Source: an uncultured Eggerthellaceae bacterium
Lineage (GTDB): Bacteria; Actinomycetota; Coriobacteriia; Coriobacteriales; Eggerthellaceae
DNA length: 32,779 nucleotides
NCBI GenBank assembly: GCA_947626665.1
Contig: CANQTB010000004.1
Coordinates: 1 to 32,779 of the forward strand
Direction of reading: 5' to 3'
Shown: one piece after another, positions 2,701 to 32,763 of the stretch
Layout of the letters: the number at the start of each line of letters is the position of its first letter
Position numbering within the stretch: position 1 is the stretch's first letter
Made by a program: the position numbers and the translations under genes
The notes under the pieces: model-generated
Seen by the model: the letters and a program-made list of their open reading frames with translations, nothing else
Told to the model about the DNA's origin: nothing
Database searches by the model: none

Positions 2701-3268
2701 ACCGCGCTCCCTGACGCTGCCGCTGTCCCGCGAGAGCCTCGCGTCGCTTCGCATCGGCGATGAGGTATTGCTGACCGGGCCGCTCTATACGATGCGCGAC
2801 GCGGGCAGCCTTCGAGCTCTCGAAGCGCTCACGGCCGAGGGCGCGCTGCCGTTCAATCTCGCCGGACAGACGCTCTTTTACGTGGGACCGACCCCTGCCG
2901 CGGCCGGACGTGCGCTCGGCGCCGTCGGACCGACGACCGCATCCCGCATGGATTTCGCAACACCGGCGCTGATGGACGCCGGAATCGTCGCGACGATCGG
3001 CAAGGGCAAGCGCGACCTATCGGTCATCGAGGCTTGCAAGCGCAACGGCGGCGTCTATTTCGCCTGCGTCGGAGGCATAGCGGCCCTCCTCGCGACCCAT
3101 GTGCGCGGCGCGGAGACGATCGCCTGGGACGATCTCGGCACCGAAGCGCTGCGCCGTCTCGACGTCGTCGATCTGCCGGCGTTCGTCGCCATTGACAGCC
3201 ACGGCGGTGATCTCTATCGGACGATCGAGGAGAACGCGATCAACGCCGCGACCACCGACGCGCTTTAA
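2693..3268 (+). CDS. Class I fumarate hydratase, beta subunit
   Basis: 191 aa overlapping the alpha stop by 8 nt; LTGPLYTMRDAG, FYVGPTPA, GPTTASRMDFATPALMDAGIVATIGKG typical of the beta subunit. Confidence 0.93.
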   Translation: MSEPRSLTLPLSRESLASLRIGDEVLLTGPLYTMRDAGSLRALEALTAEGALPFNLAGQTLFYVGPTPAAAGRALGAVGPTTASRMDFATPALMDAGIVATIGKGKRDLSVIEACKRNGGVYFACVGGIAALLATHVRGAETIAWDDLGTEALRRLDVVDLPAFVAIDSHGGDLYRTIEENAINAATTDAL

Positions 3269-3278
3269 GGCTGATGCC

Positions 3279-4469
3279 ATGGTCCGAGGTAAACACGCCC
3301 GCAAAACGCCACCCACCGCGCCTCTGCAATCACTGGCGGAGCGAATGCGCCCCGCCGGAGGGACGATCGCCACATTCGCGGCGGCCATCGTAGCCGTCGT
3401 CGTCCTCGGCTTCGCATTCGGCGCGTCTCCCACGCCGACCGTCGACGATTATGCGGGCAAAACTTCGCTCGCCGAGCGCTCGCTTCCCCAGACGACAAGG
3501 CTCGTCGATCCGACCGCCGTCGTCACCGAAACCGAGGAGACCGATGAAACCGCGACCCCGGACGATGCCGATGCCGCGCCCGAGCCCACGCCGATTTCCA
3601 TTCCGGGCATTCCGCCGACGATCGCCGATCTGCTGGCGCTTCCCGATCCGGGCGGCGTGTTCGCCTTTTGCTGCGCCGATCCCGCCCGTGCGCCGATGCT
3701 GACGGGCGAGGCCCTTAACGCCATCATCGAGGCGCAATCGGCGTTTACGGCGGCGGGCGATTCCGTCGGATTTCTTTTCATGAATCTCGCAAACGGCGTC
3801 GGCGTCGCCTCCAACATCAACGAGCAGTTCTACTCCGCTTCGACGATGAAGGCGCCGTTCGCGACGTTCGTTTGCTCGGTTTTGATCGATGGCGGCCGAG
3901 TCACCGTCGACGATTCGCTCGCGATCTCCTACGCGTCTGAATATCTTGAGTCCGGCCTCGATTCGCTCCGCGTCGAAACGCTCCTGGAAGACGCCATTCT
4001 CTATTCGGATAACGATTCATATCGGGTGTTGCGTGCGAACTTAGAATCGCTCGGCTTCAGCCCATGGCTGGCGTCGCTGGGGCTCGATGCCGACCGTCTC
4101 GCCTGGTATTGGTATCCCCGCTATGACGTGCGCGAGGCTGCGGTGCTCTGGCTGGCGACCTATGACTATCTCAGGAGCGAGGCGCCCCACGCCCCGTGGC
4201 TCGGCTCATTGCTCGGCAATACCGAAGTGTCGTTCATTCGCGACGGCATCGGGGCCGAACCGGGGATCGTCATTCAAAACAAAGCCGGCTGGATCGGCGA
4301 AGATGGGCTCGCGGCGACGAGTGACAATGGACTTTTGACGAGCGACGGAACGACGTATCTACTCTGCATTTTGAGCGACGCTCCCGACGGCGAACGCTCC
4401 GAGCACGCCGTCGCCACGCTCGCTCGCGCGCTTTTCGACGCCCGCGCGGCGCTCAACCCCACTCCTTAA
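3279..4469 (+). CDS. Membrane-anchored serine hydrolase, class A beta-lactamase-like fold
   Basis: ORF track opens at 3099 but that part overlaps the fumarase beta gene; start placed at ATG 3279. N-terminal hydrophobic segment, SxxK (SASTMKAPF), SDN (YSDNDSYRV) and KxG (NKAGWIG) motifs. Confidence 0.8.
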   Translation: MVRGKHARKTPPTAPLQSLAERMRPAGGTIATFAAAIVAVVVLGFAFGASPTPTVDDYAGKTSLAERSLPQTTRLVDPTAVVTETEETDETATPDDADAAPEPTPISIPGIPPTIADLLALPDPGGVFAFCCADPARAPMLTGEALNAIIEAQSAFTAAGDSVGFLFMNLANGVGVASNINEQFYSASTMKAPFATFVCSVLIDGGRVTVDDSLAISYASEYLESGLDSLRVETLLEDAILYSDNDSYRVLRANLESLGFSPWLASLGLDADRLAWYWYPRYDVREAAVLWLATYDYLRSEAPHAPWLGSLLGNTEVSFIRDGIGAEPGIVIQNKAGWIGEDGLAATSDNGLLTSDGTTYLLCILSDAPDGERSEHAVATLARALFDARAALNPTP

Positions 4470-4473
4470 ACTT

Positions 4474-4815
4474 GGTGAGATCGACCCCCGGTCGATTGCA
4501 CCAGTCGCGTTAGTGGTCGAAGAACCGAAGGATCTTCGACCACCGCTTTGAACTGGGATAACTCCGCTAACTCCAGCGCTCTGCCGATCGCCAAAAGACA
4601 TCTCCCCAGGTCAGACGTTCGAGCTAACTCCAGGTGGTCGAAGATCCTTCGAATCTTCGACCACCATCGGGGGGGTCAGAGTGAGATCCATCGGGGGATT
4701 AACTTACCAAAATCGATGCTACGCAGGCGATTGTCGAACGCTCAAGGTGCAATCGACCGGGGGTCGATCTCACCAGTAGCGATCAAGGTGCAATCGACCG
4801 GGGGACGATTGCACC
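4474..4815 (+). repeat. Palindrome-rich intergenic repeat, copy B
   Basis: Direct repeat of copy A with shared blocks (ccccaggtcag.cgttcgag..aactccaggtggtcgaag, ...agagtgagatcca.cggggg..taacttaccaaaa, ggtgcaatcgaccgggggtcgatctcaccagtagcg); 29-bp modules at 4474-4502, 4746-4774, 4787-4815. Confidence 0.9.
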
Positions 4816-4852
4816 AAATGGCAAAGTGGGATGCGAATGGCGGAGGTCGGGG

Positions 4853-4858
4853 TATAAT
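4853..4858 (+). promoter_or_regulatory. -10 box of tRNA-Gly promoter
   Basis: Exact TATAAT 12 nt upstream of the tRNA 5' end; -35 not clear. Confidence 0.6.
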
Positions 4859-4870
4859 CCTTTTTGGCGA

Positions 4871-4911
4871 GCGGGTGTAGTTCAATGGTAGAACTTCAGC
4901 CTTCCAAGCTG
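4871..4911 (+). pseudogene. tRNA-Gly(UCC) 5' fragment, broken after the anticodon stem
   Basis: GCGGGTGTAGTTCAATGGTAGAACTTCAGCCTTCCAAGCTG: acceptor 5' strand, D arm and anticodon arm (loop CTTCCAA) intact. Following sequence (ttgcactacccggcttctatc) has no T arm (no GGTTCGATTCC) and no acceptor 3' strand. Confidence 0.8.
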
Positions 4912-5095
4912 TTGCACTACCCGGCTTCTATCTTCTTAAAAATCCCCTCTGACCTCGGAGTTTTCTCATGGCGTCTTTCATTTTAGCAAGCGCGCGGGAT
5001 GAAAGACGGGAAATTTCGTATCGTTTTCATTTTGGCTTGGTTTGAACCCTGAATGCACGAGCGCCGTCTTTGCGACGGCGCAAGAATCATCGATA

Positions 5096-5170
5096 TGGAG
5101 CGGGCGACGGGAATCGAACCCGCGAATAGTGGCTTGGAGGGCCACGGCCTTACCGCTTGGCTACGCCCGC
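5096..5170 (-). tRNA. tRNA-Gly(UCC), complete, with encoded CCA
   Basis: Reverse complement GCGGGCGTAGCCAAGCGGTAAGGCCGTGGCCCTCCAAGCCACTATTCGCGGGTTCGATTCCCGTCGCCCGCTCCA folds as a cloverleaf: acceptor GCGGGCG/CGCCCGC, discriminator U, anticodon arm GTGGC-CCTCCAA-GCCAC, T arm with TTCGATT. Confidence 0.92.
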
Positions 5171-5181
5171 ATCATGATCGC

Positions 5182-5187
5182 ATTATA
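5182..5187 (-). promoter_or_regulatory. -10 box of the intact tRNA-Gly
   Basis: TATAAT on the minus strand, 11 nt before the tRNA; possible -35 TTGACG at 5208-5213 with a long 20-nt spacer. Confidence 0.5.
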
Positions 5188-5215
5188 CCCTAACGATCGG
5201 CCTGGTCCGTCAATG

Positions 5216-6634
5216 TCATGCTAGACCGGCACCGGCTCCCGCTGAGCGGATGTAGCTGATATAGCGTTGGCCAATGCCCAGGGCGGTGTTAGGCACGTAT
5301 CCAGCATAGAGGTCCAGTGTGTACGACGGACTCTCGTGACCCATGAGCACTGACACGGTCTTAATGTTCTCGCCGTTGGCGAGATTTTGGGTGGCATAGG
5401 TATGACGCAACGCATAAGGGCGGATGCCAGAGAACCCATTCTCGTCAATGAACTCGACCCATTGCTTTCTCCAGGTGTTGTAGGCATAGGGTGTGACGCC
5501 GTTCGACATGAGCGCCATGCGCATGGACGGAATGAGTCCCATGTCCTCAATCATCTCGGATTTCATGGCGATCCATTGCTTAGCCGTATCGGCGAATAAT
5601 GTATCGATGGGAATCGTCCGCCTACCGGCGTCGGTTTTTGGGTAGTCGACGATTTTGATGCCACCATGAGGAACGACGCTCGTGATGATGACCGAAGGTG
5701 CATCCCCAAACGCGAAGCTGCCCGCACGAAGGGCCTGCATCTCTTCAGGACGCATGCCGGTGCAAAAGAGGGCGAGGAGACTCACCTTGAACCATGTGAG
5801 CACAAGTTTCTCAACGGCCTCAAGAAACCGTGCGGCCTCGTCAGTCATCAAGGGATCGATGAGGGGCTTGTTAGACTTGAAGACGCGGCTCAAGAACCGT
5901 GCATGCGCAGGGTTTCGCGGTGTGTGCTCTTTATCAAGTCCGTAGTTGTAGAGCTCACGCAGGAACTTGAGAACCTTCGCTTGGGTGCTTGAACCGGCAA
6001 TCTTCGGCTCCTTAAGGGGCTTAACGAGTGACTTCTTCTCTTGAGCCCACTTGGCAGTCTTCCGGTTCTCCTCACGTGCCTTCTGTTTCTCTTCCGCCCA
6101 TTGGCGCGAAAGTCTAGGAATGGCGATCAGGCATGACTCTATGTCGTCCGGCGTCACCTCAAAAAATGGCTTATCGCCAATCGTGGGCCGAATGTAGCGC
6201 ATGAAGCCCCGCTCGTTTTTGATCGTTTCCGCAGAAACGGACCCATGACTTCTCACCTCGATGTACCGTTCAGCATACTCGGTGAGCGAAGCGGTGCAGT
6301 AGCCCTTGTCGTTGAGTGGAAAGGACGGTGTGCTCTTGCCAGCCGCCTCCATCTTCATCTCATAGGCGTCTTTAGCTCGAACAAGCTCGGCGTTCTTCTC
6401 ATCCTCAAACGCTCGCTCCGCGTCTTGAAGCTCGCGACGATTGAGAACGTAAACGCGCTTGGTGTATTTGATCTTGCCGTCGAGATAGACTTGGCAGTCT
6501 TCGGGCACGCGTATGCAGAGCTCATAGGCCGTCGTCCTTGGATCGGGCCGCTTTATCCTGGGTTTCCCCCTACGTTTTCTCGCCTCGTCGAGGTTGTAGG
6601 ACTTATCGCATCTCAACTGCTGCACAGAGCTCAC
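5216..6634 (-). CDS. int: Tyrosine-type site-specific integrase
   Basis: 472 aa; SAM-like N-terminal region (YAERYIEVRSHGSVSAETIKNERGF), catalytic TGMRPEEMQALR, ALRHTYATQNLANGENIKTVSVLMGHESPSYTLDLYAGY (R..HxxR-type box: LRHTYAT..LMGH..Y). Confidence 0.93.
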   Translation of the reverse strand: MSSVQQLRCDKSYNLDEARKRRGKPRIKRPDPRTTAYELCIRVPEDCQVYLDGKIKYTKRVYVLNRRELQDAERAFEDEKNAELVRAKDAYEMKMEAAGKSTPSFPLNDKGYCTASLTEYAERYIEVRSHGSVSAETIKNERGFMRYIRPTIGDKPFFEVTPDDIESCLIAIPRLSRQWAEEKQKAREENRKTAKWAQEKKSLVKPLKEPKIAGSSTQAKVLKFLRELYNYGLDKEHTPRNPAHARFLSRVFKSNKPLIDPLMTDEAARFLEAVEKLVLTWFKVSLLALFCTGMRPEEMQALRAGSFAFGDAPSVIITSVVPHGGIKIVDYPKTDAGRRTIPIDTLFADTAKQWIAMKSEMIEDMGLIPSMRMALMSNGVTPYAYNTWRKQWVEFIDENGFSGIRPYALRHTYATQNLANGENIKTVSVLMGHESPSYTLDLYAGYVPNTALGIGQRYISYIRSAGAGAGLA

Positions 6635-6899
6635 CTTCTCCCGTCGGGCGATCCCTGTAGAGATAGTTGAGCAGCGCGAGCTTCGGGATGAGCCACCGCG
6701 ACCCCATCCGGCTTCCCTGCATCTCGCCTTTGTTGAGCAGCTTGCGGACTTCCTGATCGGTCACCCCCGTGAACGAAGCCACGTCGACGGGCGTCATCAT
6801 ATAGGGGTAGTCCGCAAGCATGAACAGGTAGAGTCCATCGGGGTCGGCCGCTTTGAGCCGATCCTCATCTATCTTCAGATCGCCGTACTTGTCTTCCAT
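6603..6899 (-). CDS. Excisionase-like helix-turn-helix DNA-binding protein
   Basis: 98 aa directly upstream of and overlapping int; MTPVDVASFTGVTDQEVRKLLNKGEMQGSRMGSRWLIPKLALLNYL resembles the HTH_17/excisionase domain. Confidence 0.75.
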   Translation of the reverse strand: MEDKYGDLKIDEDRLKAADPDGLYLFMLADYPYMMTPVDVASFTGVTDQEVRKLLNKGEMQGSRMGSRWLIPKLALLNYLYRDRPTGEGELCAAVEMR

Positions 6900-7294
6900 C
6901 GCTACCCCCTCTCAGAGTGAAAGGCGGCATTGTGCCGCCCATGATGGTCAGTTGTCGGTCGCGCCTCAACGCTGCGTTTGATCCAATCGCAGCGTTGACA
7001 ACGCGCCGTTTCGCCTGGTGTGGCGCCCTTTCGCTTCGAGGAGGGTCATGGCGCGTCCGGGATGCGCGCTCGCAACCTTGCCGGCAATCGGGCTATGAAT
7101 CTGTCAAGTTGCAGAAAGCGGGAAGCATCTCCCGCATCCGCAAGCTGATACGTTTCGTGCTGCGTTTCCTTTGCGAACGGCCGTAGCGTAATGGCATTTC
7201 AAGGGCGTTTACGAAAAATGTTCGAGTATCGAGCCAATTGTCCTCATTTCGAGAACAATGTTTCTATGAGAGCGTTTTCAAGGGCATTAAAGGC

Positions 7295-7325
7295 TTGACC
7301 CTCACGCCGCGTTAGGCTGCACACT
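7295..7325 (+). promoter_or_regulatory. MerR-type promoter/operator (19-bp spacer)
   Basis: TTGACC (7295-7300), 19-bp spacer, CACACT (7320-7325); imperfect dyad ACCCTCACG-ccg-CGTTAGGCT (7298-7318) lies in the spacer. Confidence 0.45.
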
Positions 7326-7342
7326 TGCACCAGGAGGTGCTT

Positions 7343-8119
7343 ATGAACAATCTGGTTGAGCAGCAGTATCGAGTGAAAGAGCTCGCCGAACTCTCCGGTG
7401 TGAGCGTGCGCACGCTCCACTATTACGAGGAGATCGGGCTGCTTGCACCTGAGCGCACCGATTCGGGCTATCGCATCTACGGCGAGGCGGATGTCCGACG
7501 TCTTCAGGAAATACTTGCGATGCGAGCATGCGCGATGCCGCTTGGCAAGATCAAGGAGCTGTTAGCCTCGTCCGAAAGCGATGCAAAATCCGCGCTCATG
7601 GGCCACCTCCAACGCTTGCAAGCACAGAAACGCGAACTTGAGGGGGCTGTCGCCAAAACCCGCAGCGCCCTCTCACTTATCAAAGGGATGGAAGCTATGA
7701 ACGATGCCCAGAAATTCGAGGAGCTCAAACGGGCGAGCATTGAGAACTTCGAGGCGACGTACGGACGCGAGGCCCGCGAGCTCTACGGCGACGAGACCAT
7801 CGACGCGTCCAACGCCAAGTTCGCTCAGATGAGCGAAGACGCCTGGAACGCTAAGAAGCTGCTAGAAAAGGCCGTTATCGCCCAACTCAAGGTGGCGATG
7901 GCCACAGGCAACACCACAAGCACGGCGGCACAGGAGCTCACCGAGATGCACGCCGCCTGGATTCAGATGCACTGGCCGGATGGCACTTACACGCCCGAGG
8001 CCCACAAGTCACTCGCAGAGGGCTATCTCGCCGACGAACGCTTCATTGCCTACTACGACAGCGCCGCCGGCGACGGCGCCACAAAGTTCCTCGTGAAAGC
8101 GCTGCTTGCGAACCTATAA
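7343..8119 (+). CDS. MerR-family regulator with TipAS-like ligand-binding domain
   Basis: YRVKELAELSGVSVRTLHYYEEIGLLAPERTDSGYRIYGEADVRRLQEI; C-terminal EMHAAWIQMHWPDGTYTPEAHKSLAEGYLADERFIAYYD typical of TipAS. RBS aggagg before ATG 7343. Confidence 0.9.
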   Translation: MNNLVEQQYRVKELAELSGVSVRTLHYYEEIGLLAPERTDSGYRIYGEADVRRLQEILAMRACAMPLGKIKELLASSESDAKSALMGHLQRLQAQKRELEGAVAKTRSALSLIKGMEAMNDAQKFEELKRASIENFEATYGREARELYGDETIDASNAKFAQMSEDAWNAKKLLEKAVIAQLKVAMATGNTTSTAAQELTEMHAAWIQMHWPDGTYTPEAHKSLAEGYLADERFIAYYDSAAGDGATKFLVKALLANL

Positions 8120-8192
8120 AGGCCTTCGTGTCGGACGGCAACGTAGGCGACGTAACGCCGTCCGCCTTCCCGATATTGTTCGAGCATCAGTT

Positions 8193-8648
8193 CTACTCGC
8201 TCTTCCAACGCTTTAAATAAGGCAGCACGGTGGCCAGAAACGAAACGGCCTCATCGAAACTGCCTCCTGCTTGAGATACGTAATGGCGAGCCGTGGCCTC
8301 GATGAAATCGTCGAGTTCGACATCTTTGGCCGTGAAATCGCCGTTCTGGTAGCACCACTTGCAGTAGCTTTCGGAAGGTCTGCCGTCGGACTCGGTGCCG
8401 TGAATCGCGGGATCGGCGATGGGCATGCCGCAACACTGGCAGAAATATTCGGCGGGCATGTCGAAGAAGCGCTCCAGCGGCACGCCGAACGTGACTGCGA
8501 TGAGTTTCACCATATCGATGCCCGGCTCGGTCTCGCCGTTTTCCCATCTTGATATCGCCTGGCGGGTTACGAAAAGCCTGCGCGCCATCTGCTCTTGGGT
8601 AAACCCCTGCTCCGCGCGCACTTCCGCGATGGTGTCCTTGATGGCCAT
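8193..8648 (-). CDS. XRE-family HTH regulator fused to a zinc-ribbon domain
   Basis: AEVRAEQGFTQEQMARRLFVTRQAISRWENGETEPGIDMV then CQCCGMPIADP...SYCKWCYQNGDFT (CxxC...CxxC) and a C-terminal alpha-helical segment. Confidence 0.88.
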   Translation of the reverse strand: MAIKDTIAEVRAEQGFTQEQMARRLFVTRQAISRWENGETEPGIDMVKLIAVTFGVPLERFFDMPAEYFCQCCGMPIADPAIHGTESDGRPSESYCKWCYQNGDFTAKDVELDDFIEATARHYVSQAGGSFDEAVSFLATVLPYLKRWKSE

Positions 8649-12169: not shown

Positions 12170-15100
12170 TCAACGCTCAACGGCGCCGACGACGAGATGC
12201 TCGCCGAGACCGGTGCGTGCCCGCATGAGCTCGGTGATTCGCGCACGGGCGTCACTCAGGCTCTCCCGATGGGCGAATGCGCCGATCGGTGCCGGCTCTG
12301 CAATCGGCGCGCCATCGTCGCGGCGGGGTGTCGGCGCAGGGTCTCGCTCGACGTCATGCGAAGCCCCTTCGACGTGATCCCGCGCAGACTCATCCGAATC
12401 GGCGATATCAGAGGGCGCTTCATGGCCATCCATGTCAAGCGCTGCGTTGAGCTCGGCGAGCCGCGCGCTTTTGGACGTGAGCTCGGCTTCCTCGGCGAAG
12501 GGCTTGTCAAGCTCCGCCTTGGAGGCCTCCATTTGGTGATGGAGCTCCTGGAGGCGCTCTTTGGCCTCCTCCAAGCGATCGGGCAGGTGCGCGAGGGCGT
12601 TGTCGATGCGGATGAGATTTCCATGGACGCTTGTGCCAAGCTCGACGGTGTGGGAGGCCGCGCCCCGCAAGGTGAGCTTGTAGTCGAAGCCGGAAAACGA
12701 GGCCACCATCGAAAAGCCCCGATAGTTTCCGATATCGACTGGCTTGGAGAGCTTCGATTGCTTGCACGCCGCGATCATCGCCTCGCCGGCCTCGGCCTTT
12801 TCCGTGAAGAACCGGCCACCCACCGTCATGCCGCCAAACTCTCCATCGGGCGCTGTGTGGGCATTAAGCGTTTCAATGTCGCGCTCGTAAGCCGCAATCG
12901 ACTCCTCGGTTTTGGCGATGCGTTCGGGGATGCGCATGAGGATGTCGTCTTGAAGGCGGAAGCGCTGGCTTTCGAAGTCGGACTTGAGCACTTTGAGGCG
13001 CGCCACCTCGACATCGAGGTCCATCTTCTCCTTGATGCGCGCGTCTCCCGCGCATAGAGCCTTGATCTCGGCATAGGAAAGCGCCGTCTCGTCGATGTCC
13101 TCGCAGCTTCGCACGGGGGATTTCGAGGTCATGATCTGGCTGATGAACCTCTGCTTGTTTTCCACGGTCTGCCAAAGATAGGCGTCAAAGGTGTTTTCGG
13201 TGACGTATCGATAGATGCGCACGAGAGGGTTGGCGTTTCCCTGGCGCACGATACGCCCCTTTCGCTGCTCCAGGTCACCTGGCCTCCACGGGCAATCGAG
13301 ATCGTGCAGGGCGATGAGACGATCCTGCACGTTTGTGCCGGCGCCCATTTTCTGGGTGCTTCCCATAAGCACCCGCACGCTGCCCGCGCGCACGGAGGCG
13401 AAGAGCTCCTTTTTGCGAACTTCGGTGTTGGCGTCGTGAATGAAGGCGATCTCATCTTCGGGAATGCCGCCCGCGATGAGCTTTGCCTTGATGTCGTCGT
13501 ACACCGAAAACTCGCCCTCGCCATCGGCTTTACCCTTGGGCGTTGAGATGTCGCAGAACACGAGCTGGGTGAGCTTGTCCGTGGCTCCCTCCCGATAGAT
13601 GGCGAGGATGTTTTTCACGCAGAGGTTCACTTTGCTTCCCGGATCGTCGGGCAAAAGAGGATTCACGATGCGCTGGTCGAGCCCGAGCTTGCGGCCATCC
13701 GAGGTGATCTTGAGCATGTTGTCGACGCTTGGGTCCACCAGCCGATTGTGCACCTTGGCCGCGCGCTCGGAGAGCGTGGCAACCATCTCGCGCTGGTGAT
13801 CGGTGGGCTTGGCCACGACGTTGTGATATTCCACATCGGGAACATCGAGCCCGAGCTCGTCTGCGGTCTTGATGTCTGCGGCTTCCTTCCAAAGCGTCAT
13901 GAGCTCAGGGACGTTGTGGAACTTGGCGAAGCGGGTGCGGGCGCGATACCCCGTGCCCTCGGGCGCAAGTTCGATGGCGGTCACGGTCTCGCCGAAGACG
14001 CTCGCCCAGCTATCGAAGTGCGCAAGCCCCCGCTCTGTGAGCATGTCGTGCTGAAGGTAGCGCATCATGGTGTAAAGCTCGGTCATGGAGTTTGACACAG
14101 GCGTGCCGGTGGCGAACACGACACCGCGTCCGCCGGTGATTTCGTCGATGTAGCGGCACTTGAGCAGCATGTCGCTTGACTTCTGGGCCTCCGAGGTGGA
14201 AAGGCCGGCGACGTTTCGCATCTTCGTGTAGAGAAAGAGGTTTTTGTAGGAGTGGGCCTCGTCCACAAAGAGCCTGTCGCAGCCGAGCTCTTCGAAGGTG
14301 ACCACATCGTCTTTACGCTCCTCATTGTTGAGCTTCTCCAAACGGGCCTGAAGCGACTTGCGCGTCTTTTCCATCTGCTTGATCGTATAACGCGCGCCCT
14401 CCTCCTCTTTGAGCTCGGCGATGCCCTGCTCGATTTCATCGATCTGGGCCGTGAGAAAGCGGACTTGACGCTCGCGTGAGAGCGGTATCCGCTCCAGCTG
14501 ACTGTGACCGAGGATGACCGCATCCCAGTTCCCCGTGGCGATGCGGGAGCAGAACTTCTTGCGGTTCGCGCGCTCGAAGTCGCGCTTTTTGGCCACGAGG
14601 ATGTTTGCCGCCGGATAGAGCCGCAAAAACTCCGACGCCCATTGCTCGGTGAGGTGGTTCGGCACGGCGATTAGCGATTTCGTGCAAAGCCCGAGGCGCT
14701 TCGATTCCATGGCGGCCGCTGCCATCTCGAAGGTCTTGCCGGCCCCCACCTCGTGGGCCAAGAGCGTGTTTCCACCATAGAGGATGCGCGCAATGGCGTT
14801 TGTCTGATGCGGGCGCAGCGTGATCTCGGGGTTCATGCCAGCGAAGGCTATGTGGCTGCCGTCGTATTCCCGAAGCCTCACGGCGTTGAAAAGCTCGTTG
14901 TACTTTTGCGTGAGCGCGCGCCTGCGCTCCGGATCGCTCCAGACCCACGAGCTCCAAGCGTCTTTGATCATCTGCTGCTTTTGCTGGGCTTTGGTGGTCT
15001 CGGCCTTGTTGAGAACGCGGTGCTTTTTGCCCTCTGCGTCCTCCACGGTGTCATAGATGCGCACATCGCGCAGATTCAACGTGTCTTCCAGGATGCGGTA

Positions 15101-18100
15101 GGCATTAGCCCGCGGGGTGCCGTAGGTGGTGCGCGCCGCCACATCCCGATACGACGTGCGCGTCTTTCCCTCCACCCGCCATTCACCGGTGACGTTTGCG
15201 TACTTCACGCGGACGTTGCGCCGCTCATAGCGGGGCGTCTCGAACGTCTCGTGCATGAACTGCTCAACGTAGGACACATCCACCCAGGTGGCCCCAAGCC
15301 TGACATCGATCTCGGTGGCATCGAGGTCTTTGGGCTTCGCCTGTGTGAGCGCCTCGATGTTTGAGCGCACCGACCCTCGACGCTCATCGTTCTCATCCAT
15401 CGCTTCCAGCAGGTTTTCGTGGGCGCCGAGCTTTTTCCGTATGTCGCCGGATAAAAACTCATCGGCGGCAACGTAGGGAGCGCTCTCCTGTGAAAAGTCT
15501 TGGAAGATGACACCTTGAAGCTCGTCTACGAGCGCAGACGCCTCACGTCCCGTGAGACGCTCCATAAGTTCCACGTCGACGCGCCCCGCCTCGGCGATGG
15601 AGACCGAGAGCGCCTCGGCGGCGGTGTCGGCGTGATCGGCCGGAACGTGTGAGCGGATGGTGCGCTCAAAAAACATATCCGCTTTACGAGAGGGGTTTCC
15701 CTCTTCATCGAGAATCTCCAATGAGCAGAGGAGCGGATATGAGCTGTCATCGGAAAACGCGAGCGAGTTTGCGCGGGAGTTGAGAGCACCGAAGCGTTTG
15801 GTGAAGCTGTCATAGAGGATGGTGAGCTCGGCCTGGGCGTCATGCACATCATCATCGGTTGCATCTTTCAGCTGTAGATCGATGAGGTGCCGCGTGCAAT
15901 CGCGAAGCGCGATCATTCCCTTCACGCGCTCGGCGGCGGTCGCATTGAGTGTGCGCCGTGTCATGACGCTTCCCTCGCGGAAATAGATGTCGCTACCGAC
16001 AAGCGCAAATGAGAAGTTTTTAACCGATGGGTTGGCGGGAATCGTCTCCCGTGTCGCCTCTGTCCGGTTGGCCTCGTCGATGCTTAAGGCCTCCGCAGGC
16101 TCGAAGGTGCCGCGAATCGAGCGCACGGCGTGCTCCAAAAGCTCGCCGAGTTCGGCGCCCGCGAAGGACTTCACCGTGAGCTCGTCGTGGCCGTATTGGG
16201 TGGAGCGATCGGTGATCTCTCCGAGCACCATCTCGGGGTGATCGATGAAGTAGCGGTTGAGTGTGTAGCCTTCGGGCGTTGTTCCCACCTCGACCCAGCT
16301 CGGAGTCTCGGCAGAAGGAATCTCGCGCTTTTTCAGAAAGAGGATGTCTGAGACCACCTCGGTGCCCGCATTGGCCTTGAAGGCGTCATCGGGAAGGCGT
16401 ATCGCGCCCAAAAGATCGGCGCGGCTCGCGATATAGCGGCGGGCGTCGTCTTTTTGCTTGTCCATGGTGTAGCGCGAGGTGACAAAGGCCACGATGCCGC
16501 CCGGTCGCACCTGATTAAGCGTCTTTGCGAAGAAGTAGTCGTGGATGGGAAAGCCGTAACGTTCAAAGGCCCTATCGGCCACCTGGTATTGGCCAAAGGG
16601 CACGTTTCCGACGGCGAGATCGAAGAAGTCCTCGCGCTCGGTCTTCTCAAAGCCCGTGATCTCGATTTGAGCTTCGGGATAGAGCAGCTTCGCGATGCGC
16701 CCGCTTAGAGAATCGAGCTCCACGCCATAGAGCTTCGAGTCTTTCATGGACTCGGGCAAAAGCCCGAAGAAGTTTCCAATGCCGCACGCGGGCTCAAGGA
16801 CGTTTCCACCTTGAAAGCCGAAGGACTCGATCGCGCTATAGATGGCCTTTATGACCGTGGGACTCGTGTAGTGAGCGTTTAAGGTCGAGGCCCGCGCGAG
16901 CGCGTACTCGTCATCGGTGAGCAGCTCTTTAAGCTCGGCGTGTTCCTGCGCCCAGGACGGCTTCGCCTCATCGAACACATCGGGGATGCCTCCCCAGCCC
17001 ACGTAGCGTGAAAGCGTCTCTTGCTCATCGGGCGTGGCGGGACGGTTTTCAGCCTCGATGTGCTTGAGCGTGCGTATGGCCTCCACGTTCATCTGATACT
17101 TGGCCTTGGGGCCGCCGTGGCCAAGCGCGTCATCTGTGATGCGGAAGTTCGTCGCCCGCTGTATCGGCTTCGCCTCTACGACGCTTTCAGGTGCGCCACC
17201 ACGAACACCAGTGCTGATGTCTGGCATCTTTTCAGTCTCGCCAGCGAGATCGAAAAGTGATTGCTCGCCGTCAAGCTGCGCGATTGGAGGAAGGGCGCTT
17301 GAGAGCTCTTCTCGGGATTCCTCAAAGCGTTTTCTCTCATCGGGCGTGAGGTAGTCATCGCGCAAGGCGATTGAGCGCAGATGACGCTCAAGCTCGGGCC
17401 AGCCAAACGTCGCCTCTTGGCGCACGTCCCCGAAGGTCCAAACGCGAAGACCGCGCGCTGAATAATCGGCGAAAGCGCTCGTCCCATCATGAAGCGTGAT
17501 CGAGTGGCCGCCTATGCCGTATTCGCCCTTGAGGAACTTGATGGCGTCTTGGGCGCTCGGCCGCCGTTCATACAGTGCGCGGATGCGCAGCTTGCCGTTC
17601 TCAAACCCGCTTCCTCGGCGAAGCTCCGCTTCGATGTCGGCGGGTGAAAGCGCAAGCACGCCCACGGGCGTGACAGCATTCGACTCAACGGATGCGGAGG
17701 GCTCTTCGTCAAGATTGAGGTTTAGTTGCAGATGAGCTCGTCGATCACGATTTCCTCCGCTTGCGCCCGGCAGGTGTTCATGAGCCCCACCCACCTCATC
17801 TGATCGTGGGCTTTGAGGTTCTCGGTCACTCCCGCCCGCTGCGCGAACGTGCTCGTGAGTTCCTCCATCCGGCTCCTCGCCGTCTCGTCGATCTCGATCA
17901 GGTGAGCCGTGAGCGTCCCCGAGAGCAGAAGCTCGTTGTAGAGGACCGGTCGATGTTCCTTGAGATAGCGCTTCCTCATGGAGCCCCACCGGGTGAGCGT
18001 CACCTCGGTCTTCGGGCTTTGACTCTCGTCGCTTCTGTTCATCTGCTCGTCCATGGTCATTCTCCTCACTTACATTACGGCTTTTGGTGGCGCGTCCTAT

Positions 18101-18796
18101 ATCTTGCAAAACATCACGCGCAAGCGTTGAGGTGGCAACGCCAAGCGCACGCACAGCCTCGGGCGTCGCAAGCACCGTCGCTTGTGCGACGTTCGCTTCG
18201 AGCGTGCGCAATCCATCTGGATCAAGTCCGCAACGGGCGTAGAGCACTCGCGTGACGCTCATCCCTAATGCCTGCGCAAACGCCTCTCGGTCATCCTCGC
18301 TGGCGTCGGGGCCGAGCGTGTCGCGTCCGTTGTCGCGAAGCCACGCATTCCCGAGCCTATGGGCGATCTCTGAGAGCTGGCGTTCAAGGCCTGCGCTTGC
18401 ATCGGCATCGTAGGCCTTGGAAAGTTCAAGCGCCACGCTGCGTTTTTGAGAATCTTGAAGCCGCCACTGGCCAAGCGGGCGCGCATTGGCGCGCATAGCG
18501 GTGTCGGACACGTCGAACACGTAACGCAGTCGCGGCGCATCCCCGGCGTCATCTATGAGCGCTATGCCCTTTGAGCCGCGCTTCACATAGCGGCCCATCT
18601 TCTGAGACCAGAAATCGTATTCGGCGAGCGCGGTGGCATCAGGGCGCTGGGCGAAGATGAGCACCTGCTCGGCGAAGGTGTACTTGTAGTTTTGCGCCGC
18701 CGTGTCGAGAAAGCGCGCCCACTGCTCGCCATCGCCTATGAATCCGTCGATGGTGCGATGGGCGAGCTCGGTGTAGCTATCGAGTTTGGTGGCCAT
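12170..18796 (-). CDS. Giant N6-adenine methylase / SNF2-type helicase protein of ICEs
   Basis: 2208 aa; N-terminal ICE module (YKYTFAEQVLIFAQRPDATA), methylase VLEPACGIGNFFGLLPE and GNVPFGQYQ, helicase LLAHEVGAGKTFEMAAAAME, LFVDEAHSYKN, FATGTPVSNSMTELY, MGSTQKMGAGTNVQDRL...QRKGRIVRQGN. Confidence 0.9.
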   Translation of the reverse strand: MATKLDSYTELAHRTIDGFIGDGEQWARFLDTAAQNYKYTFAEQVLIFAQRPDATALAEYDFWSQKMGRYVKRGSKGIALIDDAGDAPRLRYVFDVSDTAMRANARPLGQWRLQDSQKRSVALELSKAYDADASAGLERQLSEIAHRLGNAWLRDNGRDTLGPDASEDDREAFAQALGMSVTRVLYARCGLDPDGLRTLEANVAQATVLATPEAVRALGVATSTLARDVLQDIGRATKSRNVSEENDHGRADEQKRRESKPEDRGDAHPVGLHEEALSQGTSTGPLQRASALGDAHGSPDRDRRDGEEPDGGTHEHVRAAGGSDREPQSPRSDEVGGAHEHLPGASGGNRDRRAHLQLNLNLDEEPSASVESNAVTPVGVLALSPADIEAELRRGSGFENGKLRIRALYERRPSAQDAIKFLKGEYGIGGHSITLHDGTSAFADYSARGLRVWTFGDVRQEATFGWPELERHLRSIALRDDYLTPDERKRFEESREELSSALPPIAQLDGEQSLFDLAGETEKMPDISTGVRGGAPESVVEAKPIQRATNFRITDDALGHGGPKAKYQMNVEAIRTLKHIEAENRPATPDEQETLSRYVGWGGIPDVFDEAKPSWAQEHAELKELLTDDEYALARASTLNAHYTSPTVIKAIYSAIESFGFQGGNVLEPACGIGNFFGLLPESMKDSKLYGVELDSLSGRIAKLLYPEAQIEITGFEKTEREDFFDLAVGNVPFGQYQVADRAFERYGFPIHDYFFAKTLNQVRPGGIVAFVTSRYTMDKQKDDARRYIASRADLLGAIRLPDDAFKANAGTEVVSDILFLKKREIPSAETPSWVEVGTTPEGYTLNRYFIDHPEMVLGEITDRSTQYGHDELTVKSFAGAELGELLEHAVRSIRGTFEPAEALSIDEANRTEATRETIPANPSVKNFSFALVGSDIYFREGSVMTRRTLNATAAERVKGMIALRDCTRHLIDLQLKDATDDDVHDAQAELTILYDSFTKRFGALNSRANSLAFSDDSSYPLLCSLEILDEEGNPSRKADMFFERTIRSHVPADHADTAAEALSVSIAEAGRVDVELMERLTGREASALVDELQGVIFQDFSQESAPYVAADEFLSGDIRKKLGAHENLLEAMDENDERRGSVRSNIEALTQAKPKDLDATEIDVRLGATWVDVSYVEQFMHETFETPRYERRNVRVKYANVTGEWRVEGKTRTSYRDVAARTTYGTPRANAYRILEDTLNLRDVRIYDTVEDAEGKKHRVLNKAETTKAQQKQQMIKDAWSSWVWSDPERRRALTQKYNELFNAVRLREYDGSHIAFAGMNPEITLRPHQTNAIARILYGGNTLLAHEVGAGKTFEMAAAAMESKRLGLCTKSLIAVPNHLTEQWASEFLRLYPAANILVAKKRDFERANRKKFCSRIATGNWDAVILGHSQLERIPLSRERQVRFLTAQIDEIEQGIAELKEEEGARYTIKQMEKTRKSLQARLEKLNNEERKDDVVTFEELGCDRLFVDEAHSYKNLFLYTKMRNVAGLSTSEAQKSSDMLLKCRYIDEITGGRGVVFATGTPVSNSMTELYTMMRYLQHDMLTERGLAHFDSWASVFGETVTAIELAPEGTGYRARTRFAKFHNVPELMTLWKEAADIKTADELGLDVPDVEYHNVVAKPTDHQREMVATLSERAAKVHNRLVDPSVDNMLKITSDGRKLGLDQRIVNPLLPDDPGSKVNLCVKNILAIYREGATDKLTQLVFCDISTPKGKADGEGEFSVYDDIKAKLIAGGIPEDEIAFIHDANTEVRKKELFASVRAGSVRVLMGSTQKMGAGTNVQDRLIALHDLDCPWRPGDLEQRKGRIVRQGNANPLVRIYRYVTENTFDAYLWQTVENKQRFISQIMTSKSPVRSCEDIDETALSYAEIKALCAGDARIKEKMDLDVEVARLKVLKSDFESQRFRLQDDILMRIPERIAKTEESIAAYERDIETLNAHTAPDGEFGGMTVGGRFFTEKAEAGEAMIAACKQSKLSKPVDIGNYRGFSMVASFSGFDYKLTLRGAASHTVELGTSVHGNLIRIDNALAHLPDRLEEAKERLQELHHQMEASKAELDKPFAEEAELTSKSARLAELNAALDMDGHEAPSDIADSDESARDHVEGASHDVERDPAPTPRRDDGAPIAEPAPIGAFAHRESLSDARARITELMRARTGLGEHLVVGAVER
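17722..18069 (-). CDS. tnpV: TnpV-like transposon-encoded protein, overprinted in another frame inside the methylase/helicase gene
   Basis: MRKRYLKEHRPVLYNELLLSGTLTAHLIEIDETARSRMEELTSTFAQRAGVTENLKAHDQMRWVGLMNTCRAQAEEIVIDELICN matches the TnpV pattern as I recall it. Same strand as the 2208-aa ORF, different frame (checked by codon-level reading of 17722-17800). Confidence 0.75.
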   Translation of the reverse strand: MRRMTMDEQMNRSDESQSPKTEVTLTRWGSMRKRYLKEHRPVLYNELLLSGTLTAHLIEIDETARSRMEELTSTFAQRAGVTENLKAHDQMRWVGLMNTCRAQAEEIVIDELICN

Positions 18797-19468
18797 GTCA
18801 TCGCCATCCCAAAGGGTTTAAGACAGCTGGCGATGACGGCGAAAGGGCAAGACAGGCCATGGCATAGCCTTCTTCCTGTAATTACGTTTTGGGAGACAAG
18901 TCCACGACGACGCTCGCCAAAGGCGCTGCATCCGCTCATGGAAAGGCGATGATGTGTGCCGCCGCGTCATGCCGGCGGCTCGGGCCCGCTGTCAAAAGCC
19001 CGGATGGTATTAGAGAAGAAATCTCGCCTTCACTGGTATTTTCCCACGAAACGCCCCGTCTGAACAATAATTCGGCAATTTCACATCCTGTTTGCCCAAA
19101 GTCGGCGAATGCCCCAAACCAACCGTTAAGCCTCCTACCTCTACGTGTCTGATAACGATTTCGCTCGAGCGCGTTCATTCCCGCCATAGCGGGCAATTTT
19201 TCGCGGCCTACGCGGCCGCCTCGCGGCAGGGCATGCAGCCCTGCACCCGCTCCCTTCCCTCAAGCGCCGGGTGGCTTGCCATAGGCCGAGCCTGTCGCCG
19301 CCAAACCTCACGACATCTCCACAAAGCCGCTTCGCGCCTTGGTGCAGATGACGCGCACACGCTTCGTGAAGCTTGTCGCTTTCGGCCCGTCCCATGGCGT
19401 GGGGCACTTAAGCCGAGTGCGTGCGAGCCGCAATCGGCGGCAAGCGATTCATCCAAGGAGGTCAGCAA

Positions 19469-20842
19469 ATGGATGCCATCAACATAAGCGAGCTAGTGCT
19501 CACCGGAAGCGAGACGACGAGACCCCAGGCCGCCAGGAAGAAGAACAATCCGCCGGTCTATGAGGTGGTCGTGAACTCGGGAGCAGACGTCGCCATACGC
19601 CGCACCCAGGGAAGATCGCGCCGTCTGCTCGTAATGCTTGTGAGCCAAGGCCAGTACTACGTGAAAAACGAGGGAACCGGCGAGGTGCGCGAGCTCGATG
19701 AGAAGACGCTTGCCTCATTCATGTCAGGCTCGGGAGGCTCCATCACCGTGAACAACCAATGGCTCGATGAGCTCTTAGCGGAGAAGGGCGAGCGGGACTT
19801 CCTCTTGCGCGTAATGAACACGGAATGGTTTAGCGAAACGGCCAAAAGCGGCATTTGGAATATGGGCGATGCGAGGCCTCGGTTCTCATGGGAGCGCGAT
19901 GTTTGCGATTTCGCCACGCCTATGAAGCTCATAGCCAACCACGGAGCGCTCGCCAAAACCGTAAAGGAGTCCATCGACGATGCCGACGAAGGGGCGCTCA
20001 AGTGTCGCATCAAGAAATCGTTTCCTGCCTTTTGCGCCGTTGAAAACGCCTACGGTCTTGATCGGGCGAGGCTCTTCATCAAACGCTACATCGAAAGTGG
20101 CGTTGAGGTGGCGCTTGACGGCGATGTCATGGGCGCCATCCTCAACACCTCCGCCGAAAGCGACACCATAGGAATCTATCGACACAGCACACGATACTCC
20201 ACCAACATCAACGGCTTCGGAAGAGACGGTCGTGGGACGCCCATTGTCTTTTCCTTCGATAAGTTCTGCGACTACCTGCTTTGCCAAAGCTGCCGCGAGG
20301 GCTTTGCCCGCGAAATCCGCGAATGGCTCATCACCTGGCGCGACGCACTCGTGCTCCAGTATCGCTGCTTTGACAAGGTGACCGACAAATACCCCGAAAA
20401 CCTCCTCTCCGCCCACATGCGCCTTTCGACCACCTCCCAATCCCTCAAGCAAAAGATCGATGAAAAGCTCTGGGCGGGTGCTACTTCGGCCATGGAAGCC
20501 CTTGACTGGAAACCTGATTCAGAGCGCTATCTCATAAGCCACCCCACATGCCCCGACGACATGCGACGCGAGGCCGCTTCCCAGTCAAACTGCCTCGCCT
20601 CTTACATCGACGCCGCCGCTAAAGGGCGGACGCTCATCGCGTTTCTGCGCCGCGCCTCAGACCCGGAGTCCTCATTTGTCACCATCGAGGTCTCCCCGGA
20701 AGAAAAGCGAATCATCCAGGCGAAGGCACGCTTCAACAGAGAGGTGAACGACGACGCGCTCGCGTTCATCGGCAAATGGTGTGTCGCAAGGTCGATCAAG
20801 CCCGGCTGCCTCCGTGATCGGCTTGCAGCCATGAGCGCCTAG
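19469..20842 (+). CDS. PcfJ-like protein of conjugative elements
   Basis: Start ATG 19469 with aaggagg; C-terminal SQSNCLASYIDAAAKGRTLIAFLRRASDPESSFVTIEVSPEEKRIIQAKARFNREV resembles the PcfJ pattern. Confidence 0.6.
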   Translation: MDAINISELVLTGSETTRPQAARKKNNPPVYEVVVNSGADVAIRRTQGRSRRLLVMLVSQGQYYVKNEGTGEVRELDEKTLASFMSGSGGSITVNNQWLDELLAEKGERDFLLRVMNTEWFSETAKSGIWNMGDARPRFSWERDVCDFATPMKLIANHGALAKTVKESIDDADEGALKCRIKKSFPAFCAVENAYGLDRARLFIKRYIESGVEVALDGDVMGAILNTSAESDTIGIYRHSTRYSTNINGFGRDGRGTPIVFSFDKFCDYLLCQSCREGFAREIREWLITWRDALVLQYRCFDKVTDKYPENLLSAHMRLSTTSQSLKQKIDEKLWAGATSAMEALDWKPDSERYLISHPTCPDDMRREAASQSNCLASYIDAAAKGRTLIAFLRRASDPESSFVTIEVSPEEKRIIQAKARFNREVNDDALAFIGKWCVARSIKPGCLRDRLAAMSA

Positions 20843-21370: not shown

Positions 21371-21549
21371 AAACTTGGGGCAGCCGGCGATGTTTACACC
21401 CAAACCACCCTCTCGGATGGCGATTGGAAGCAATCATCGCTGCGCGGCCGCCCGAAAGCCCGAACGGTCGGTGACGCAGGCGCGCCATCGCCGTCGAGCT
21501 TTGCGGGGGAGGCCCCGCGCCCCTCGAAGATGCAAAGGTGAGGATTTCG

Positions 21550-21954
21550 ATGGACACGATGGTCATGGTGGGATTTCGACTGGAGCGCTCAGACGGAGCG
21601 TGGCTCACCGAGCGCGCGAACGCGACCGGCCTTTCGGTTTCGGTCTATCTGCGCCAGCTCGTGAGACTCGCTCGTGCCACCGATGACGCCTTGGGCGAAG
21701 CCGCCCTCTTCGAGCGCCACACCCAGCACCTCATCTTTCGAGAGCTCCGGCGCCAGGGAGTGAATCTCAACCAAGGCGTCCATGCCTTAAACACCATCGC
21801 CATGCAGTTGGAGCGAGGGCGAAGCACGGGCGATTGGATGCGCGAGCTCTTCGAGCGCGCGTCACTTGCCTTGGATATGGCTACCGACGCCCATGACGAC
21901 ATCGAATCGACCATCGAGACATTGAATGACCGAATCCTTCTAGGAGGCGCGTGA
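21550..21954 (+). CDS. MobC-like relaxosome accessory protein
   Basis: ~134 aa from ATG 21550 (alternative 21538); GFRLERSDGAWLTERANATGLSVSVYLRQLV...RRQGVNLNQGVHALNTIAMQL; stop overlaps the relaxase start. Confidence 0.8.
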   Translation: MDTMVMVGFRLERSDGAWLTERANATGLSVSVYLRQLVRLARATDDALGEAALFERHTQHLIFRELRRQGVNLNQGVHALNTIAMQLERGRSTGDWMRELFERASLALDMATDAHDDIESTIETLNDRILLGGA

Positions 21955-23246
21955 TGGCAATCCTCAAGCAGATCGCCGGACACACAGGTTGCGCCCGCAT
22001 CAAGCACTACCTGGAGCGCGGAGGCCGCGCCATCGAGCGCGAGTTCATGAACTTCTACTGGCAGCTCGGCGAAAACGAGATCGAGCCTGCCGATCACGCT
22101 CCCGAGGGCTTTGACTGGGCGGTCGCCATGGATGCAACCCGTGTGTCCGAAAACAACCACCTGCCCTATAACGGTCGCCTCGCGCGCACCTTCAAGCACT
22201 TCGTCATTTCTCCCGACCCCAAAGACAGAATCACCTTCGATGAGCTGAAAGCGCTTGCGCACACCTGGCTTACAGAAGAGTTTCCCGACTTTGAGGCTGC
22301 CATCGTCTATCACGACGACAATGATGGTCACATCCCGCACGCTCATATCGTCGTGAACAACACGAATCTCAAAACCGGACGCCGCATGCACACAGACGAC
22401 GCCCGCGATCTCAACCGCGATCTCCAGAAAATGGCCAAGGCCATGGAGCTCGCCCATTTCGATGACGACCGAAAGCGGGCCTTGGCAAAATCCCAGATAG
22501 GCCCCTCCAAAACGCCGCGCACCCATCAGGCCATCCACTACAGTCGCGCCGAGGAGCGCATAGCGCGGGAGGGCGGCTACTCGTGGCTTTCAGACATTCG
22601 CTCGCGAGTGGATGCGGCCAAGCACCTTTCTGCCGATGTGGTCGAGTTCAAGAAGAACCTCGAAACCCTCGGCGTCACGGTCGAGGACTCCAAGAGCCGC
22701 CGCCATCGTCCCGATTGGGTATTCAAACTTGCTGACCAGCCCACCTGTCGTGTGTGCGGGGAGAAGCTCGGCGCTCTTTATGGGCGCACGGAGCTGACAC
22801 TCTTCTTCAACCGGCAAGGGAGAAACGCCTTATCCACACGGGGCGAGCTTCTCGATCACGCAAAGACCGCCGTCACGTTAAACGACCTCTCAGAGCTTCA
22901 CGAGCTCGCCCGTTCACTTTCCCTTTGCTCACGCCATCACATCGTCTCGATCAGGGGCATTGATGAGGCTATCGCCCGCACCGAGAAGCTTGCTTCCAGC
23001 GCCGAAGGACGCCGAAGCATAGCGCTCTCCCAACAGATCGAGGAGCTTAAGCGTGCCAAGGACTTCTTGGCCACCCGAAACCTCTTGCCGCTGCGTGGGA
23101 CTGCGACCGCTCCCGCCAAACCCGAACGCACAGGCCGAACGAGTCCCCGAGGAGACGATGGCGTTTACCGCAACACCCACCCGTCGTCATCGTCACGTCC
23201 GACTATCGAGCCGCAACGCCGCGATGCCGTAGAGAGGGGCCGCTAG
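21951..23246 (+). CDS. MOBP-type relaxase (MobA/VirD2-like)
   Basis: 431 aa; FKHFVISPDPKDRITFDELKALAHTWLTEEFPDFEAAIVYHDDNDGHIPHAHIVVNNTN contains the HxH relaxase motif. Confidence 0.88.
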   Translation: MMAILKQIAGHTGCARIKHYLERGGRAIEREFMNFYWQLGENEIEPADHAPEGFDWAVAMDATRVSENNHLPYNGRLARTFKHFVISPDPKDRITFDELKALAHTWLTEEFPDFEAAIVYHDDNDGHIPHAHIVVNNTNLKTGRRMHTDDARDLNRDLQKMAKAMELAHFDDDRKRALAKSQIGPSKTPRTHQAIHYSRAEERIAREGGYSWLSDIRSRVDAAKHLSADVVEFKKNLETLGVTVEDSKSRRHRPDWVFKLADQPTCRVCGEKLGALYGRTELTLFFNRQGRNALSTRGELLDHAKTAVTLNDLSELHELARSLSLCSRHHIVSIRGIDEAIARTEKLASSAEGRRSIALSQQIEELKRAKDFLATRNLLPLRGTATAPAKPERTGRTSPRGDDGVYRNTHPSSSSRPTIEPQRRDAVERGR

Positions 23247-31756: not shown

Positions 31757-32076
31757 TATCGCAACGCTCCCTCGGCTGCTATCTCAAAATTGCGAAGGTA
31801 GCTCTCGTAGAGCTGTACCACATCGCGCCCGACGAGCGTCTGATTGATGCTCTGATACCGCCGCTCATCGTCGGTGACCACGTAGATCGTCTCAATATCT
31901 GGCCGTTTCTCGACTGCCTCGATAAACTCCTTGGCGCTGGCGTAGTCGAATAGGATGGCATAGGCATCAGCAATAGCGTAGTTGCGGCCGCCCTGGGTTT
32001 CAATGATGCGCCCTTTGCTAATGTGCGATAAAGAAGTAATAGAAGTGTAAAAAATTTTGCCGTTCCTATCCGGCAC
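31756..32076 (-). pseudogene. C-terminal fragment of a Mod-type adenine-specific DNA methyltransferase
   Basis: GGRNYAIADAYAILFDYASAKEFIEAVEKRPDIETIYVVTDDERRYQSINQTLVGRDVVQLYESYLRNFEI resembles a methyltransferase C-terminus; no catalytic motifs; stop/start overlap (TAATG) with res. Upstream sequence changes to the recombinase element. Confidence 0.65.
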
Positions 32077-32097
32077 TTAGGGCTGTGTCGGATAGGT
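32066..32097 (-). terminator. Hairpin after the recombinase gene, near the element end
   Basis: cctatccg...cggatagg 8-bp inverted repeat; on the minus strand followed within ~10 nt by a run of T. Confidence 0.55.
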
Positions 32098-32103
32098 CAG
32101 GCG

Positions 32104-32763
32104 TTAGGCTTCCGGCAAGTCTATCTTGCCGACAAAGCTGTAATAAATCTCAATGTCCTGCCTGCGGGTGCCGTTCTCGTCATAGCTGCACTCATGCACG
32201 ACGATTTTCTCAATCATTTCCCGCAAGAGGGTGGGGGTCAATTCTTCAAAAGCAAGGTGCTTTCTCACAATCCCCATGAATTTCTCGGCGTTGACGGTGG
32301 CGGCCTGCGACTTGGAAAGTTCCTCCTGCAAAGCGGCAGCCCGGTCTTTCAGTTCCCGCTGCTCCTGCTCATAGTCCGCCGACAGCTCCATGAAACGCTC
32401 GTCGCTGATTTTGCCGCTTACATTGTCCTCATACAGCCGCTTGATAATGCGGTTCACTTCGGCAATGCGTGTCTGGGCCTGTTCAAGCTGCTTCGTGGCT
32501 GCGGCGGTCTTTCTCTTGCCGCCGATTTCGTTCTGCTGGATGAGCAGCTTTACAAAGCGGCTCTCATGCCTGGCGGCGTATTCCGTCACTTGCCGGAGAT
32601 TGGAAAGCACGCCCGCCGTCAAAAGGTCGGTGCGGATAAAGTGTGCCGTACAGTCACGGGTACGCTTCTTGTAGCTGCCGCAGATATAACAGTCCTGCTT
32701 GCGGTTCTTGTTCTGATACCGCTGCTGATACAGCACATGGCCGCAGTCGGCGCAGAACAGCAT
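32104..32763 (-). CDS. Large serine recombinase, C-terminal portion (5' end beyond the window)
   Basis: Zinc beta ribbon FCADCGHVLYQQRYQNKNRKQDCYICGSYKKRTRDCTAHFIR and coiled-coil region followed by LTPTLLREMIEKIVVHE; no stop between ATG 32763 and the edge region, so this is probably an internal Met. Ordered like large serine recombinases of Firmicutes transposons. Confidence 0.85.
   Translation of the reverse strand: MLFCADCGHVLYQQRYQNKNRKQDCYICGSYKKRTRDCTAHFIRTDLLTAGVLSNLRQVTEYAARHESRFVKLLIQQNEIGGKRKTAAATKQLEQAQTRIAEVNRIIKRLYEDNVSGKISDERFMELSADYEQEQRELKDRAAALQEELSKSQAATVNAEKFMGIVRKHLAFEELTPTLLREMIEKIVVHECSYDENGTRRQDIEIYYSFVGKIDLPEA

Follow-up and report, generated by a model that had tools for sequence, protein, structure and literature searches.

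The stretch of DNA analyzed here (hereafter the window) is the entire 32,779-bp contig of a draft MAG (87% complete, 241 contigs), and it very probably holds the integrase end of an integrative conjugative or mobilizable element whose relatives split a host tRNA-Gly gene and supply a replacement with the same anticodon. At the level of the element family, the reading of the element-borne gene (the cargo tRNA) as a rescue tRNA is well supported, and functional rescue of the host is what the arrangement suggests.

The features of the window are collected in Table 1. The host gene starts downstream of an exact TATAAT box with GCGGGTGTAGTTCAATGGTAGAACTTCAGCCTTCCAAGCTG at 4871-4911, which corresponds to nt 1-41 of a tRNA-Gly(UCC), and directly past 4911 it gives way to TTGCACTACCCGG, a non-tRNA sequence; the preliminary description of a gene intact for 41 nt and broken after the anticodon stem can thus be read directly from the letters. 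A chance match is dismissed because the piece is identical to intact tRNA-Gly(UCC) genes of relatives (e.g., 41/41 in genome G012, E 2e-14). The broken copy scores merely 29 bits with Rfam and was not called by ARAGORN on the window. Between the break and the tyrosine integrase lies the full tRNA-Gly(UCC) on the other strand with its own -10 box, likewise as first described. Its distance is 185 nt to the core and 45 nt to the integrase stop codon. The spacer separating this cargo from the core is homologous across the family, with the GAGGTCAGA motif in common. The window therefore displays a split at the left junction, a complete cargo gene and an agreement of their anticodons.

Table 1. Features of the window and the evidence on which they were assigned
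Feature	Position	Strand	Evidence
TATAAT -10 box upstream of the split host tRNA	4853..4858	+	sequence
Orphan 5' half of host tRNA-Gly(UCC), up to the anticodon stem-loop	4871..4911	+	identity to intact genes of relatives
att core AGCCTTCCAAGCT in the anticodon stem-loop, forming the left element junction	4898..4910	+	G006/G028 homology begins exactly there
attP spacer from core to cargo tRNA; core inverted relative to most relatives	4911..5095	.	alignment
Complete tRNA-Gly(UCC), element-borne, loop CCTCCAA	5096..5170	-	ARAGORN; Rfam 61.5 bits
-10 box TATAAT of the cargo tRNA	5182..5187	-	sequence; cargo upstream sequences
Tyrosine integrase	5216..6634	-	Pfam PF00589 1.4e-9; PHROG 1; family alignment
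Small helix-turn-helix protein, probable excisionase	6603..6899	-	Pfam HTH_17; role suggested by position
2208-aa SNF2-type helicase protein, conjugative-element type	12170..18796	-	Pfam SNF2/ResIII
PcfJ-like protein	19421..20842	+	Pfam PF14284
NikA-like mobilization protein	21538..21954	+	Pfam PF21983
Relaxase (MobA/VirD2-like)	21951..23246	+	Pfam PF03432

The cargo tRNA would be expected to be expressed and charged and, in this way, to rescue the host. Its anticodon loop, CCTCCAA, has C33 in place of the near-universal U at this position, which is unusual and could weaken decoding or reduce function. Together with the incompleteness of the MAG, this loop gives some room to a rather unlikely explanation, in which the cargo is non-functional and its task falls to another UCC gene that is missing from the assembled contigs. 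Since the MAG is 87% complete, a further UCC gene may indeed exist in this genome, and an unrelated UCC 3' half on another contig (C145) points to assembly gaps at such genes. Against this explanation, the cargo adopts a complete tRNA fold, scores well with Rfam and has a -10 box of its own, and no intact second UCC gene was detected in the 87%-complete MAG.

As the window is a whole contig, the right end of its element is not visible there. A 3' half of the kind anticipated in the preliminary description is present at one end of complete elements of the family; for the window element, none matching its 5' half was found in the 87%-complete MAG. The only candidate, C145, carries a UCC tRNA 3' half with 30 nt of element-like sequence in front of it (L035, G000:C145:1-75), and it is an unlikely partner because its stem, GCTCT, does not pair with TCAGC of the window. 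This 3' half resembles the G067 cargo and the G041 gene. Apart from the window, the same genome contains a second, different tRNA-Gly interruption (L056, at the end of G000:C48), where the 5' half of a native tRNA-Gly(CCC) gives way to non-tRNA sequence shortly before the end of the contig.

The presence of an integrase and a relaxase on a single element in the window is a feature of integrative conjugative or mobilizable elements. The contig stops before any T4SS region, and the T4SS genes were read from a complete element of Parvibacter (G018), which encodes a type IV coupling protein and a secretion-type ATPase. No convincing virion gene was found among the 10 proteins checked, as opposed to what would be expected for a temperate phage. 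A search of IMG/VR returned two weak fragment matches and nothing more, and the plasmid and phage collections contained no close relative. PADLOC recognized a methyltransferase-like stretch in the 2208-aa SNF2-type protein. It also assigned a 745-aa AAA ATPase (24580-26817, minus strand) to the candidate defence family PDC-S06 (9e-114), the PrrC match of this protein being weak and partial.

Relatives of the integrase occur in 18 of the 140 genomes of the host's family and in four genomes from elsewhere in the order, the named hosts being Adlercreutzia caecimuris, A. hattorii, Gordonibacter pamelaeae, Ellagibacter isourolithinifaciens, Parvibacter caecicola and Slackia equolifaciens. In nearly all of them, a complete tRNA-Gly lies 39-209 nt past the integrase stop codon and half of a host tRNA-Gly another 162-200 nt beyond, an architecture of cargo plus half tRNA common to at least 20 of the relatives. 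The possibility that the complete tRNA is a reconstituted host gene was dropped once the half was seen 162-200 nt further on. The cargo genes comprise about ten distinct bodies, 64-99% identical. The anticodon of the cargo equals that of the adjacent half at all 19 loci readable for both (15 CCC/CCC and 4 UCC/UCC), these loci not being independent of each other.

The fate of the host gene is best seen in complete elements and in relatives with an empty site. Both orphan halves, the 5' half at one end and the 3' half at the other, delimit the elements of G068 (38 kb), G018 (40 kb), G098 (53 kb) and G006 (36 kb), which bears out the earlier claim that the host tRNA is split at the anticodon and not restored. 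In Gordonibacter 28C (G108), the upstream (C14) and downstream (C1) flanks map to one contiguous locus of G109 with an intact tRNA-Gly(CCC), and the two flank alignments overlap there by 11 bp, which is the core. A corresponding comparison of G098 with G097 gave an overlap of 12 bp. Comparison with intact genes and empty sites of relatives thus places attB within the host tRNA gene. The common core is too short to rebuild the tRNA in either pair (of the window element, the left junction alone is visible), and a host tRNA rebuilt at a junction, as in tRNA-restoring islands, was not encountered. No second CCC gene was detected in G109 or G097, and the empty site of the Gordonibacter relatives has a single intact tRNA and no cargo. 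The pattern that would have spoken against an element-borne tRNA, with a broken and an intact copy in empty-site relatives, was therefore not seen. As an empty site, the same-genus genome G001 was uninformative, because none of the 30 tRNA loci read there was an assembled Gly(CCC) or Gly(UCC) gene, and synteny via the flanking hydrolase gene gave distant matches only.

Element-bearing genomes yielded no other intact gene for the anticodon concerned, with the exception of G064 and G035, which also have an intact native CCC gene. In A. hattorii (G064), the att site looks unrecombined, and an intact native tRNA is what would be expected there; it lies 37 kb from an attP-like junction. At this junction within the chromosome (L057, G064:C1:287800-288800, ~409), the integrase-proximal end is directly joined to an integrase-distal arm.

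The next question is whether the complete tRNA belongs to the element, as first proposed, or to the host. Integrase and cargo are identical across three genera (G064, G103 and G121) and nearly identical in G018 and G066, which assigns the cargo to the element. The opposite assignment, with the complete tRNA as the host's native gene and the half as a displaced attP-type fragment of a tRNA-restoring element, would be the usual arrangement for integrases that target tRNA genes and agrees with the close spacing of the complete tRNA and the fragment. It is nevertheless highly improbable, since comparison with empty-site relatives shows the host flanks to be continuous with the halves instead of the cargo, the cargo moves with the integrase across genera, and the homology of the spacer between elements runs from cargo to core and ends at the core. 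An element-borne cargo is also retained after the integrase decays. In G028, a 49-aa remnant of the integrase and a decayed host 5' half accompany a cargo identical to that of G006 (76/76), and on contig C9 of the Parvibacter genome G018 and in G063, 50-87 aa of the integrase are left beside an intact cargo-type tRNA, the only CCC gene detected. These fossil loci argue that the cargo is in use.

The integrase tree provides a view of how target and cargo change together. Targeting of the UCC gene arose twice, as forced by well-supported branches, and the integrase of the window is the sister of the CCC-targeting integrase of G006. The cargo of the window is 84-86% identical to CCC-type tRNAs (the native gene and the G006 cargo), compared to 68-73% for native UCC tRNAs. 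As judged from these identities, it is most probably a CCC-type tRNA whose anticodon mutated to UCC when the target changed. For the other UCC lineage, the G067 cargo matches the UCC gene of G041 and G429, from another family, at 74 of 74 positions and was, for this reason, probably captured whole. This joint movement bears on the alternative that the cargo serves codon supply or resistance to anticodon nucleases and that disruption of the host gene is incidental. Phages carry tRNAs for such proposed reasons (PMC10865867), and the window's AAA ATPase of the PDC-S06 family, with its faint resemblance to PrrC, might hint in the same direction. This alternative is quite improbable, however, since the cargo anticodon follows the target at 19 of 19 loci across two target switches and no member of the family was found with a cargo anticodon differing from that of the disrupted gene. 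Moreover, the cargo is kept after loss of the integrase and is usually the sole intact gene of its kind.

The cargo-core spacer is homologous in all aligned members, and the window, G006 and G028 have the core in inverted orientation within this spacer. Owing to this inversion, the half adjacent to the window's cargo is the 5' half on the opposite strand, whereas the other members have the 3' half there, on the strand of the cargo. The target core reads AGC(T/C)T(T/C)CCAAGCT, and many cargo genes deviate from it. The A38U loop (CCCATGC) is present in two cargo backgrounds (G083/G163 and G322/G323/G258/G333), the stems are changed in G006/G028 and G064/G103/G121, and the window cargo combines C33 with an altered stem. 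To judge from these differences, the altered loops and stems should block insertion of an element into its own cargo. In G035 (C21/C19) and G083 (C11/C12), the cargo fits the core, and later elements apparently inserted into it.

These observations can be combined into a likely mechanism. The tyrosine integrase would use a core of about 11-13 bp to recombine with the host tRNA-Gly(UCC) gene at its anticodon stem-loop, and the insertion would split this gene into dead halves because attP lacks any tRNA half. The cargo tRNA-Gly with the same anticodon would be transcribed from its own promoter beside the integrase gene, and the host could therefore continue to read GGA and GGG. The integrated element would thereby become the sole source of this tRNA, and viable integrants are predicted to need it. 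When an integrase lineage turns from the CCC gene to the UCC gene as its target, the anticodon of its cargo would shift too, either by mutation of a CCC-type tRNA, as proposed for the window, or with a UCC-type body, as in the other lineage. In some bacteria, tRNA-Gly(CCC) is dispensable since the UCC tRNA also reads GGG, while the UCC tRNA is not. For the CCC members, rescue may therefore concern fitness rather than survival, and rescue from lethality would be clearest for UCC members such as the element of the window. It is about evenly balanced whether the family as a whole represents an addiction-like device, in which destruction of the target is coupled to a matching replacement, with co-evolving cargo and target, shielded loops, stacking and permanent replacement of the host gene after decay of the element.

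The closest known systems are temperate phages. Lysogeny dependent on a phage tRNA was shown by experiment in mycobacteriophages, with cores of 8-17 bp and a requirement for the cognate phage tRNA, and an inverted attP is known for phages Omega and Gaia (PMC10865867). The actinobacteriophages Fionnbharth, LeBron, Gaia and others resemble the present elements in having a tyrosine integrase, a short core in the anticodon region and a host tRNA that is not rebuilt; closely related integrases with different targets likewise carry the matching tRNA, and Gaia shares the inverted attP (PMC10865867). These phages (PMC10865867) differ in their targets (Lys, Ile2 or Leu, as opposed to Gly(CCC) and Gly(UCC) in the conjugative elements) and in the host lineage. 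The best phage integrases found by search are ~25% identical, and a cargo always located beside the integrase, nested stacks and fossil cargo genes are traits of the present elements. In the Rhizobium phage vTRX32-1 group, a complete phage tRNA-Leu without the 12-bp att motif was proposed as a substitute for the interrupted host gene that avoids super-integration (PMC8631192). That case is a phage with a tRNA-Leu, inferred in one group, and changes in the anticodon loop were not described (PMC8631192). Islander-type islands and ICEs share the tyrosine integrase, the tRNA gene as attB and the conjugation genes, but their attP holds the 3' part of the tRNA and the gene is restored (PMC4383910), in contrast to the ~11 bp core and lack of restoration found here. 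The Caldiarchaeum tRNA-Thr model also places a tRNA fragment near another, complete tRNA, and a recombinase lies between the two or beside them, yet it is archaeal and involves intron gain and reconstitution with no replacement gene (PMC3293823).

In the literature searched, in which subscription journals were thinly covered, no report of a replacement-tRNA strategy in conjugative elements was found. New with respect to the phage precedent are its occurrence in conjugative elements, the family-wide rule, the cargo that tracks the target, the non-matching cargo loops, the stacking and the retention of fossil genes. The phage strategy is hence widened to conjugative elements of common gut bacteria, as a family-wide property and not as scattered cases. 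It accounts for tRNA fragments and "extra" tRNA genes beside integrases and for hosts relying on an element-derived tRNA, in which deletion of the element may remove the sole tRNA of its kind. The joint switching of target and cargo, in turn, offers a natural experiment on how integrases change targets.

Several minor observations concern the surroundings of these loci. The fumarase-hydrolase genes of the window are flanked on both sides by intergenic repeats of ~85% identity (1390-1765 and 4473-4830). Further along, a type III restriction res gene is followed by a C-terminal methyltransferase fragment (28871-32763, minus strand), and the last gene, which the contig end truncates, is serine-recombinase-like (Zn ribbon, DUF4368) and possibly belongs to a second element. 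Finally, a van-like cluster for glycopeptide resistance lies beside the integrase gene of the Parvibacter caecicola element (L160, G018:C12:4501-24500, positions 3233-8415), consisting of a D-Ala-D-X ligase, a D-2-hydroxyacid dehydrogenase, an S11 D,D-carboxypeptidase and a sensor kinase.
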